This document shows positions 31,020 to 35,665 of a stretch of DNA of 64,000 nt, in pieces. The DNA is from an uncultured Selenomonadales bacterium (GTDB taxonomy: Bacteria; Bacillota; Negativicutes; Selenomonadales; Selenomonadaceae), in NCBI GenBank assembly GCA_946407095.1, contig CAMJMR010000003.1, forward strand, positions 1-64,000, read 5' to 3'. The notes under the pieces were generated by a model that worked only from the letters and a program-made list of their open reading frames with translations, did no database searches and was not told the DNA's origin. Numbering within the stretch: the first letter of the stretch is position 1; each line of letters begins with the position of its first letter. The translations under genes were made by a program, and so were the position numbers.

Positions 31020-31474
31020 CACATGAAAATATCGACGAGCATACCGCGAATGGCATCGTGCGCCGCGATAACGTCAAGCTGTTCCGATTGTCCCAGCCGA
31101 ATTTTTTCAGCCATTTCCTCCAGCCGATTATCGATTTTGCGGACGGTCGTGTAGACGCGTTGGCGCCCCATTCTGTCCCAACCGGCAGACGTGTGCACTT
31201 CGTACATGTTGCTTATCGCCGCGCTCACGAAATTTTTTATCAGCGTGCGATACTCTTTGAGCTCGTCGTAAGTCGGCGTTTTGGTAAGGCGTGCCGCTTG
31301 GTCGTCGATTTTCTTCAGCATCGCCTCCATTTCCTCGTGCGAAACGCCTTCGTCTTGTTGCTCAAGAAGTTCCGCCTCGAAGCTCAATTCTTTATCGCGC
31401 GGGTGTTCGCTCGTGCCGCGCAGAAGTTCAAACGGCGACGCGGGGACTCCCGTGTTTGAAATTTTTACTGCCAT
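31019..31474 (-). CDS. yaaR: YaaR (DUF327) family protein
   Basis: A 151-aa protein of the YaaR/DUF327 family, located immediately upstream of holB as in B. subtilis. It is helical and charged. The conserved C-terminal block DRMGRQRVYTTVRKIDNRLEEMAEKI is visible. Function unknown, though the synteny with holB and ricT is conserved in Firmicutes. The start lies about 40 bases after the end of the structured RNA described below. Confidence 0.9.
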   Translation of the reverse strand: MAVKISNTGVPASPFELLRGTSEHPRDKELSFEAELLEQQDEGVSHEEMEAMLKKIDDQAARLTKTPTYDELKEYRTLIKNFVSAAISNMYEVHTSAGWDRMGRQRVYTTVRKIDNRLEEMAEKIRLGQSEQLDVIAAHDAIRGMLVDIFM

Positions 31475-31511
31475 TTCAATTCACCTCGCGTGCAGTTTAT
31501 ACATTTTGGTC

Positions 31512-31757
31512 GCCAAATGCAAGAAGAGACTGCCGATTGATAATCAGCAATCTCTTCTGAAAAAGGGCTCCGAAATGCCGGTTCCTCCGAATGTCTAAAC
31601 CTGCTTACTCGCAGGTGGGTTCCCTAAGCTCGGTTTCTGTTACTCGCCGCGCGGACAATTCTCCATCTTCCGAAATCAATTCGGGTTCCCTAAAATTAAT
31701 GTAGGTTAGACATTAATTGAGTCCTCGTACCTCCCAGATGGTTCCTTCTTCGCGCCG
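31512..31757 (-). ncRNA. Structured non-coding RNA upstream of yaaR (unassigned, possibly 6S-like)
   Basis: About 235-245 nt on the minus strand. The 5' end GCGAAGAAG, just after a good promoter, can pair with CTTCTTGC at the 3' end (8 bp with one bulge), so both ends close on each other. Internal hairpins include the perfect ATTAATGT/ACATTAAT stem (about 31720-31698), a CCGAATTGATTTCGG hairpin, ACCTGC/GCAGGT (about 31600-31617) and AGAAGAGA/TCTCTTCT (31522-31558). The motif GG(G)AACC recurs four times. There is no ORF. I could not assign it to a named family. A long 5' leader of yaaR is the alternative. Confidence 0.6.
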
Positions 31758-31762
31758 ATAAT

Positions 31763-31791
31763 AGCACGAAAATTTTTTTATTACAAGACTT
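31763..31791 (-). promoter_or_regulatory. Promoter of the structured RNA
   Basis: Minus-strand TTGTAA, 17-base spacer, TATTAT (plus strand ATAATA within GCCGATAATAGC and TTACAA near 31790), about seven bases upstream of the proposed RNA 5' end. Confidence 0.65.
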
Positions 31792-31825
31792 GACAAGCCT
31801 CGCCGCCGAAATTTTTTGCAAGCCG

Positions 31826-32995
31826 TCAGCGGTAGGACTTTTGGTAAATTTTCAGCATGTCGTCGTCGCTAAGGGCAACAGGGTCGAACTGCAAGAGGAA
31901 GCCCATCGCGTCGCGAGTATTCTGCACCATTTTGGGGAATTCGTCGGGCTTAATGCCGTAGTCGCTCATTTTGAGATTGTCGACGCCGCAAGCCGCTTGC
32001 ATTTCCTTCAGCGCGTCGATAAAGTCTTCGGGCTTGTCGGCATTGACTTTGCCCATGGCGCGCGCCATAGCGATAAATTTTTCGTCGCAAGCGTGTTTCT
32101 CGACGAAGTGTCCGAAATATGCCAGCGAAATCATAATCAAGCCCGCGCCGTGCGGCAATTCGGGATGATAAGCACTCAAGGCGTGTTCAAGGGAATGTTC
32201 CGCCGTGCAAACGCAAACGTCCATCGAAAAGCCGCCCAAGGTGTTCGCGAAGGCAACTTGCGTGCGCGCCTCAAGATTCTTTCCGTCGTTGACGGCAACG
32301 GGCAAATACTTCGCGAGCTTTTCAATCGCCGTCAGCTCAATCATCGACGAAGCCTCATTGCACGCGTTGGAAATGTAACCCTCGGCGTTGTGGAAGAAAG
32401 CGTCGAAGCCTTGATAAGCCGTGAAGTGTTTCGGGACGGTCAGCATGTAAATCGGGTCGACAATCGCCAAGTCGGGATAGCTGCCGAAAAACGCGGTCTT
32501 CTCGTTGGTTTCAAGGTTTGTGATGACTGCGCCCGCGTCGACTTCGGAACCCGTGCCCGCGCTGGTCGTTATCGCAATGTAAGGCAAAGCTTTTTCCGTC
32601 AAGGGCTTTTTGCCGCCCGTGCCGAACATGATGTAATCCCAGACGCGCCCGCCGTCCTTTTGCGGAATGACCGAGGCGATAGCCTTCGCCGCGTCGAGCA
32701 CCGAGCCGCCGCCTAAGCCCACGACGAAATCGCAACCGTTAGCGCGCCCGAAGTCCACGCCCTCCTGAACGACAGGCTCCGTAGGATTCGCGCCAATCTT
32801 GTTGAAGACGACGAAATCCGCGCCCCAAGCCGTCAGTTCTTCCTGCAACTTGTCGAGACTGCCGTTGGTTTTCGTCGAGCGTCCGTTTGAAATGACAATC
32901 AATGCCTTTTTGCCGAAAGGTGCCTCTTTGTGCAGTTCGCCGAGCTTGCCCGCGCCGAATAAAATCTTTGTCGGAATGTGCCAAGTAAATGCCAT
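31826..32995 (-). CDS. Iron-containing alcohol dehydrogenase
   Basis: A group III Fe-dependent alcohol dehydrogenase (388 aa, butanol-dehydrogenase-like). NAD(P)-binding GLGGGSVLDAAKAIA (about 90-105), TTSAGTGSEVDAGAVI, and the metal site Asp/His residues around DAFFHNAEGY, AEHSLEHALSAYHPELPHGAG are complete. It reduces aldehydes or oxidises alcohols in fermentation. ATG 32995 (MAFTWHIPTKILFG) follows GGGAGG and replaces the track start. Last gene of a run with a glyoxalase and two HAD phosphatases. Confidence 0.93.
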   Translation of the reverse strand: MAFTWHIPTKILFGAGKLGELHKEAPFGKKALIVISNGRSTKTNGSLDKLQEELTAWGADFVVFNKIGANPTEPVVQEGVDFGRANGCDFVVGLGGGSVLDAAKAIASVIPQKDGGRVWDYIMFGTGGKKPLTEKALPYIAITTSAGTGSEVDAGAVITNLETNEKTAFFGSYPDLAIVDPIYMLTVPKHFTAYQGFDAFFHNAEGYISNACNEASSMIELTAIEKLAKYLPVAVNDGKNLEARTQVAFANTLGGFSMDVCVCTAEHSLEHALSAYHPELPHGAGLIMISLAYFGHFVEKHACDEKFIAMARAMGKVNADKPEDFIDALKEMQAACGVDNLKMSDYGIKPDEFPKMVQNTRDAMGFLLQFDPVALSDDDMLKIYQKSYR

Positions 32996-33447: not shown

Positions 33448-34530
33448 TTAGTTTGACCGTTTAACGTTGTCGCCGTAAATCGTTTTGAAGTCGTCGCGCA
33501 TGGAAATTGTAATCCAGCCGTTCTTTTCCGCCAGCGAAATGCACTTGTTCGCCTTGTCGATGTTGCCGAGTTCGCGCTCCGTGTCGTCGCAGATGACGAA
33601 AAACGCCAAGCTCTTGTATTTGTTGCCCGCAAGCGCGTAATTCAGCATGGAAGTATCGCCGCCGCTGTTTCCGAACGCCAAAACCGGCTGCTTGCCAATT
33701 TCGTGCTCAATCGCAATGACTTTGTTCATTTTCAAGTTCTTTTGCGTGAGCCCGCCGCGAATCAGATAATCGTCTTGGCGATAGTTGTAATCGTCGGCGG
33801 ACTTGTCGCCCTGATTCGACGCAATTATCGCGGGATTGGTGCCGATAACGTTGTCGTAGGGGATTTTCAGCAGTTCCGAGGCCATGACGCGCGTTGCGGG
33901 ACGGTCGGAGCCCGTGACGATATAAACCGTGAAATTATTCGCCTGCAAGTACTTGATGACTTCAACCATCGGCAGATAGAACGCTTCGCCCCATTTTAAG
34001 TTCGTGAGGCCTTCGACGGGCTTTTTCATGAAGTTTTTGACGTAAACCTCGTAATCCTTGGGCGTCATGCCCGCGAAGACCGATTGTTGCGATTTTGCCT
34101 CGCCTAAATCGATACCCTTGGGGAATTTGCCCGTCATGAAGTGCCCGGCGCGAATTTCGGCGTCAACCATTTCCGCATAGGCTCTGTCTTCGGGCGAAGG
34201 CGTGTAATCGGGGTCGTTCAGCGCGCGTTCAAGGTACAACATCCACTCAAAGTAGCACGGCATCGACTCTCCGATAAAAGTTCCGTCCATATCGAAGACC
34301 GCCAATCTGTCCTCGACGGGGATAAAGTTTTTAGACTTCTTGTTCGTCACGTCGGTGACAAATTCGATTAATTTTTGCTTGGCAACGGCGTCCTTCGTCC
34401 AATACTTGAAATCTTTCGCCTTCTTGACTTGAATTTGAGCGATTTGGTCGCGGGGCATGGCGTCAGCCGCTCCGAACGTGCCAAAAGCGATTAATCCAGC
34501 CGTCAATGCCGCCAAAATCTTTTTACGCAT
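33448..34530 (-). CDS. Secreted HAD-superfamily phosphatase, paralog 1
   Basis: A 360-aa exported HAD hydrolase. Signal peptide MRKKILAALTAGLIAFGTFGAADA. HAD motif I is AVFDMDGT (about 81-88), motif II VTGSD, and motif IV FGNSGGDTSM with a Lys region before it. The large insertion between motifs I and II holds a cap (YFEWMLYLERALNDPDY...). A periplasmic or surface phosphatase is likely, substrate unknown. GGGAG precedes the ATG. Two paralogs occur at 34549 and 38592. Confidence 0.87.
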   Translation of the reverse strand: MRKKILAALTAGLIAFGTFGAADAMPRDQIAQIQVKKAKDFKYWTKDAVAKQKLIEFVTDVTNKKSKNFIPVEDRLAVFDMDGTFIGESMPCYFEWMLYLERALNDPDYTPSPEDRAYAEMVDAEIRAGHFMTGKFPKGIDLGEAKSQQSVFAGMTPKDYEVYVKNFMKKPVEGLTNLKWGEAFYLPMVEVIKYLQANNFTVYIVTGSDRPATRVMASELLKIPYDNVIGTNPAIIASNQGDKSADDYNYRQDDYLIRGGLTQKNLKMNKVIAIEHEIGKQPVLAFGNSGGDTSMLNYALAGNKYKSLAFFVICDDTERELGNIDKANKCISLAEKNGWITISMRDDFKTIYGDNVKRSN

Positions 34531-34548
34531 GAAAACATCTCCCGAAAT

Positions 34549-35613
34549 TTATTTTGAAAGTTTAACGTTGTCGCCGTAAATCGTTTTGAAGTCGTCGCGC
34601 ATGGAAATTTTTATCCAGCCGTTGGCGTCGGCGAGCTTGATACATTTGTTCGCCTTGTCGATGTTGCCGAATTCGCGCTCCAAGTCGTCGCAGATGACAA
34701 AAAACGCCGCCGTCCGATATTTATTGCCGCGCAGAGAAAAATTTATCATCGAACTGTCGCCGCTGCTGTTTCCGAATGCCAAAACCGGTTTTTTGCCGAT
34801 TTCGCGCGCCATGTTGCTGACTTTGTTCATATTTATATCTTTGCTGACGAATTCGCCGCGCACGACCTTGTCTTCGGGCTTCAAAGTGTAGTCCATGCCG
34901 TCCGTGTCGCCTTGATTCGTCGCAACGTGTTTGTAGTCGGTGCCAATCATGTTGTCGCTGTCGACGGGCAAAATTTCGGCCGAAGTGCGCATATAGTCTC
35001 TGTCCGCGCCGCTAATCAGGAAAATTTTAAAATCGTTCGCCTTGAGATAAGAAATTACTTCAATCATCGGCAAATAGAAAGCCTCGCCGACTTTTAAGTT
35101 GTCAAAACCTTCGACGGGCGTGTTCAAGTAGTTTCGCGTGTAGGCGGCGTATTCGTCAGCAGTCATGCCCGCGAAGACCGACGCATTGGATTCGCAATGT
35201 TTACGGCGAACGTCGTTGGTCATCTTGCGGTTGTAAATCGCCGCTTTTACCGCCTCGCCGTTGGCTCTGTCCTGCGCGGAGGCAATGTAATTGGGGTCGT
35301 CAAGCGCGCGGTGCACGAACATCATAAAATCGAAACAGAACGGTGCAGTCTCGCAAGCAATGGTGCCGTCCACGTCGAAGACCGCGATTCTGTCGGCAAC
35401 TGGGATAAAATTTTTGCTGCGCTTGTTAGTTACGTCGGTGACGTATTCGACGAGCTTTTGTTTGGCAACGGAATCTTTAGCCCAGTATTTGAAATCCTTG
35501 GCGCGTTTGACTTGAATTTGAGCAATTTGGTCGCGGGGCATGGCGTCGACAACTCCGAACGTGCCAAAAGCGATTAATCCAGCCGTCAATGCCGCGCAGA
35601 TCTTTTTACGCAT
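34549..35613 (-). CDS. Secreted HAD-superfamily phosphatase, paralog 2
   Basis: A 354-aa paralog of the 33448 gene, sharing signal peptide, FDVDGT motif I (AVFDVDGTIACETAPF), ISGADR motif II and FGNSSGDSSM motif IV, so the catalytic Asp pair is intact. The ATG at 35613 is preceded by GAGGTGATG. The signal peptide differs from paralog 1 at ILAAL/ICAAL, a change that creates the over-represented CCGCGCAGA string. Only 18 bases separate it from paralog 1. Confidence 0.87.
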   Translation of the reverse strand: MRKKICAALTAGLIAFGTFGVVDAMPRDQIAQIQVKRAKDFKYWAKDSVAKQKLVEYVTDVTNKRSKNFIPVADRIAVFDVDGTIACETAPFCFDFMMFVHRALDDPNYIASAQDRANGEAVKAAIYNRKMTNDVRRKHCESNASVFAGMTADEYAAYTRNYLNTPVEGFDNLKVGEAFYLPMIEVISYLKANDFKIFLISGADRDYMRTSAEILPVDSDNMIGTDYKHVATNQGDTDGMDYTLKPEDKVVRGEFVSKDINMNKVSNMAREIGKKPVLAFGNSSGDSSMINFSLRGNKYRTAAFFVICDDLEREFGNIDKANKCIKLADANGWIKISMRDDFKTIYGDNVKLSK

Positions 35614-35665
35614 GTTTTCATCACCTCGAAGCAAACTTTAGCAAAAAATTTTCGCGCCGTCAACG

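Follow-up and report, generated by a model that had tools for sequence, protein, structure and literature searches.

A minus-strand locus in the window, the 64,000-nucleotide stretch of DNA analyzed here, is a real, discrete structured-RNA gene, and its best explanation overall is, with very little room for doubt, that it is ssrS, the 6S RNA (SsrS) gene of a Quinella-like rumen Selenomonadales bacterium. 6S RNA is a well-known, nearly universal small regulatory RNA that mimics an open promoter and restrains the main RNA polymerase. Membership of the locus in this family, the conservation of its promoter and structure, and the presence of a single recognizable copy are all shown by the analysis. 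The original prediction had noted the 6S-like form of the RNA and left it unassigned; the form proved correct, with a full-length match to the 6S model and a covarying rod structure, and the RNA can now be assigned by the curated Rfam threshold, by covariation, and by reciprocal-model tests. The locus is an ordinary member of a known family, with no novelty beyond description at the level of the lineage. The Quinella-like character of the host is suggested by the named relatives of the adjacent holB gene. A literature search combining 6S RNA and Negativicutes turned up only general RNA-discovery studies in which both terms are named once or twice.

Match to the 6S RNA family

The Rfam search that the original prediction proposed placed the 6S RNA body at positions 31563 to 31743 on the minus strand. 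The match to RF00013 (6S RNA) spans model positions 1 to 187 of 187 (window 31743-31563) and reaches 47.6 bits, where the gathering score is 46.4 (window-level E value, 1.9e-6), so that the whole-model score lies above the curated covariance-model threshold. RF00013 is the sole Rfam family reaching gathering level in the whole window. The margin over the cutoff is just 1.2 bits, and several pairs of the closing stem are nonstandard in the Rfam alignment; because the score falls near the cutoff, further identity tests were run, and these agreed with the match. A hit to RF01107, a plant-virus pseudoknot, at 31534 to 31560 (19 bits versus a gathering score of 39) overlaps the terminator-like hairpin described below and was dismissed as chance. 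As predicted, the gene has a single recognizable copy: the host's own 2.6-Mb assembly contains one RF00013 match, at 31743-31563 (minus strand), and a search of that assembly for a second 6S copy found none, unlike the situation in Bacillus subtilis, which has both 6S-1 and 6S-2.

Conserved structure, promoter, and predicted pRNA

Support for the structure is comparative and does not come from folding energy. The covariance check called for earlier was run on 29 sequences from the genus and yielded a consensus of 60 pairs, with 97.4% of cells paired, compared with 92.3% in shuffled controls and 38 to 56% in slid versions, over which the consensus is somewhat favored, having been derived from the same alignment on which it was scored. 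Twenty-five of the pairs changed on both sides, versus 13.1 in shuffles (0/500 shuffles reach 25), and the number of cells with double changes was 122, versus 36 in shuffles. The folding energy is unexceptional (z = -1.09 on each strand, with plus and minus folded separately); since neither strand is unusually stable, thermodynamics was not used as evidence.

The consensus is a rod with a closing stem, a central bubble, and an apical arm, supported by covariation. The two ends do pair, as had been proposed: on the minus strand, GAAGAAGG (31751-31744) joins CCUUUUUC (31566-31559) in the outer closing stem (helix 1, 96% of cells paired), which closes a rod of ∼190 nucleotides (nt). Perfect hairpins were likewise recovered at two places. 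One (ACCUGC-GAGUAA-GCAGGU, 31616-31599) lies in the 3′ strand of the central bubble, in a region where ACCCACCUGC is invariant or nearly so in the genus; it resembles the small hairpin of B. subtilis 6S-1 RNA (bsrA), which is already present in the bubble 3′ strand of the free RNA (PMC8876501). The other is a terminator-like hairpin straight after the 6S body (31558-31522, 17 bp in the consensus), in which 13/17 pairs changed on both sides and 97% of cells are paired. It is the most strongly supported helix of all, with covariation as expected of the gene's terminator, and is followed by a weak T-tract. Open reading frames that overlap the stretch look accidental, in keeping with the original view that it contains none.

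A promoter scan of 31400 to 31900 returned exactly one sigma-70-like site, on the minus strand at 31786-31758, comprising a -35 element TTGTAA (31786-31781), a 17-nt spacer, and an extended -10 element TGC-TATTAT (31763-31758). This is the TTGTAA-17-TATTAT promoter of the original prediction, which had not stated its strand, and it is conserved in the genus: the 17-nt spacing and extended TG -10 are found at 27/30 loci, and at the remaining three the -35 is weaker but the TGnTATTAT -10 is retained. Given the promoter position, the conserved 5′ edge, and the 3′ hairpin, the primary transcript probably starts at about 31751 and ends just past the hairpin at 31522 (31522 to 31751, minus strand). 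The promoter, the closing stem, the pRNA-template helix, the apical arm, and the covarying 3′ hairpin are all conserved.

Conservation along the RNA is highest at TGTCTAACCTACA in the 5′ strand; this block pairs with GGTTTAGACA in the 3′ strand to form the P2 (downstream) helix and pRNA template of 6S RNA. In this helix (helix 3), 97.9% of cells are paired; the 5′ strand, AAUGUCUAACC (31704-31714, minus strand), is near-invariant, and the 3′ strand is GGUUUAGACAUU (31590-31601, minus strand). In lactic acid bacteria and reference species, the hallmarks of the start site are GG at pRNA positions 4/5 or 5/6 and an adenine just upstream (PMC8414754). These hallmarks, together with the alignment position, put the predicted pRNA start at 31701 on the minus-strand template, at C then A in the RNA, as in B. 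subtilis 6S-1. The predicted pRNA, 5′-GUAGGUUAGACAUUAA, would read as the plus strand from 31701 upwards, and short products made on this template would begin GUAGGUUAGACAUU. At the sequence level, GUAGGUUAGACAUUAA carries GG at positions 4/5 with an A beside the start, within a block that is near-invariant in the genus. When the template region was held unpaired, as in a pRNA hybrid, the predicted fold kept both arms and the 31616-31599 hairpin.

6S RNA in related genomes

RF00013 matches were found in 54/61 genomes (the host and its relatives), including 27/27 of the high-quality genomes; scores reach 113.7 bits in the same class and fall under the gathering cutoff in six genus members. Among the seven genomes lacking a match, one (G028) has an orthologue detected by DNA similarity and the genus model, and another (G019) has a copy truncated at a contig end. 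The other five are fragmentary genus genomes (59 to 83% complete), in which the lack of an RF00013 match probably reflects assembly gaps. As a reciprocal test, 24 same-class loci identified by RF00013 were searched with a covariance model trained on 23 sequences, all from the genus; it recovered 24/24 at the same places, with 20 to 93.9 bits. The RNA of the genus and the 6S genes accepted in related organisms are thereby homologous, and because the genus model lands on the RF00013 loci of those organisms, the two form one family.

Two genomes merit separate mention. In the genus member G007, the P2/pRNA-template helix of the 6S RNA (locus L053, 1201-1376, minus strand) is ∼13 nt short in its 3′ strand, which is either a true deletion or a fault of the assembly; the remaining RNA and the promoter are intact. 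In a same-class genome, two tandem 6S genes lie ∼190 nt apart (G041:C1:2042624-2042797 and 2042990-2043164), among four RF00013 matches in total. Several members of the class have 2 to 4 copies, versus one in this genus.

Compared with 6S/SsrS RNAs of RF00013, the RNA shares the full-length match, the rod with a central bubble, the conserved P2/pRNA-template helix, the CCCACCUG block in the 3′ bubble, its own promoter, and a single locus. It differs in a bit score below those of most class relatives, in its lineage-specific sequence, and in the long covarying terminator-like hairpin that lies immediately 3′ of the closing stem.

Alternative explanations and gene neighborhood

The marginal Rfam score (47.6 versus 46.4) would fit a new structured RNA class resembling 6S only superficially. 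However, the genus-only model hits strong same-class RF00013 loci at the same places, and intermediate scores bridge these loci and the genus RNA, leaving a new class with next to no credence. A CsrB/RsmY-like sponge that titrates CsrA via GGA motifs is highly improbable too. The genome does encode csrA (PF02599, 86.9 bits), and the RNA contains 10 GGA triplets, a feature shared with CsrB/RsmY/RsmZ; the earlier count of about 10 was thus accurate, but the implied richness is not significant (7.2 expected from dinucleotide composition, p about 0.09). Across the genus, counts vary from 5 to 11 for GGA and from 0 to 5 for ANGGA, the motifs sit largely in conserved 6S helices, and the Rfam search of the window found no CsrB/RsmY-type family at threshold. 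The fourfold recurrence of GGAACC is genuine (0.14 copies expected in dinucleotide shuffles; 0/2000 reach 4). At the top of the bubble, its two inner copies, GGGAACCC, form helix 4 (GGG-CCC, AA/AA, CC-GG), one copy per strand; half of the repeat is thereby accounted for, and these copies pair with each other instead of lying in loops. With the full-length 6S match also disfavoring it, the suggested CsrA sponge was abandoned.

The same small probability attaches to a 5′ leader, that is, a cis-regulatory element of yaaR-holB and not a free RNA. The downstream genes are yaaR (DUF327) and holB (a DNA polymerase III delta-prime type subunit), and yaaR lies on the same strand with its start 89 nt past the 6S body; upstream is an iron-containing alcohol dehydrogenase gene. 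The location upstream of yaaR-holB holds here but not as a general feature: yaaR is downstream at only 13/30 genus loci, the alcohol dehydrogenase gene precedes 6S at 11/30, so that the neighborhood is not fixed, and no yaaR match was found within about 1.5 kb of class-level 6S loci. In lactic acid bacteria, 6S neighborhoods are conserved at the family level only (PMC8414754). Moreover, the covarying terminator-like hairpin stands between the 6S body and yaaR, and the leader was rejected on the variable synteny together with this intervening hairpin. A free 6S RNA could partly read through its weak-tailed terminator into yaaR-holB, coupling production of 6S RNA and the clamp-loader subunit in some species of the genus, an idea we consider very unlikely.

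Between the 6S hairpin and yaaR (31474-31521, minus strand), a TGTATAAA box that is conserved at several genus loci is a possible separate yaaR promoter. Farther away (33448-35634, minus strand), two adjacent genes encode similar HAD-type secreted phosphatase-like proteins of ∼360 amino acids each, apparently a tandem duplication judging by their translations.

Proposed function and implications

By analogy with the 6S family, from which polymerase binding, pRNA synthesis, release, and physiology are carried over, the sigma-A-type promoter would produce an RNA of roughly 230 nt that folds as a rod with a central bubble. Mimicking an open promoter, this RNA would bind the sigma-A RNA polymerase holoenzyme and keep the polymerase idle in nutrient shortage. 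Once nutrients return, the polymerase would copy the 5′ bubble strand as a template into a short pRNA, predicted to be 5′-GUAGGUUAGACAUUAA, whose synthesis would open the P2 helix and release the RNA.

The locus is now settled as the orthologue of a nearly universal regulator. For 6S RNA in Quinella-like Selenomonadales, the analysis yields an alignment across the genus, together with a prediction of the pRNA sequence and a terminator-like hairpin that covaries. The 6S RNAs of these bacteria score near or below the Rfam threshold and may therefore escape automatic annotation.
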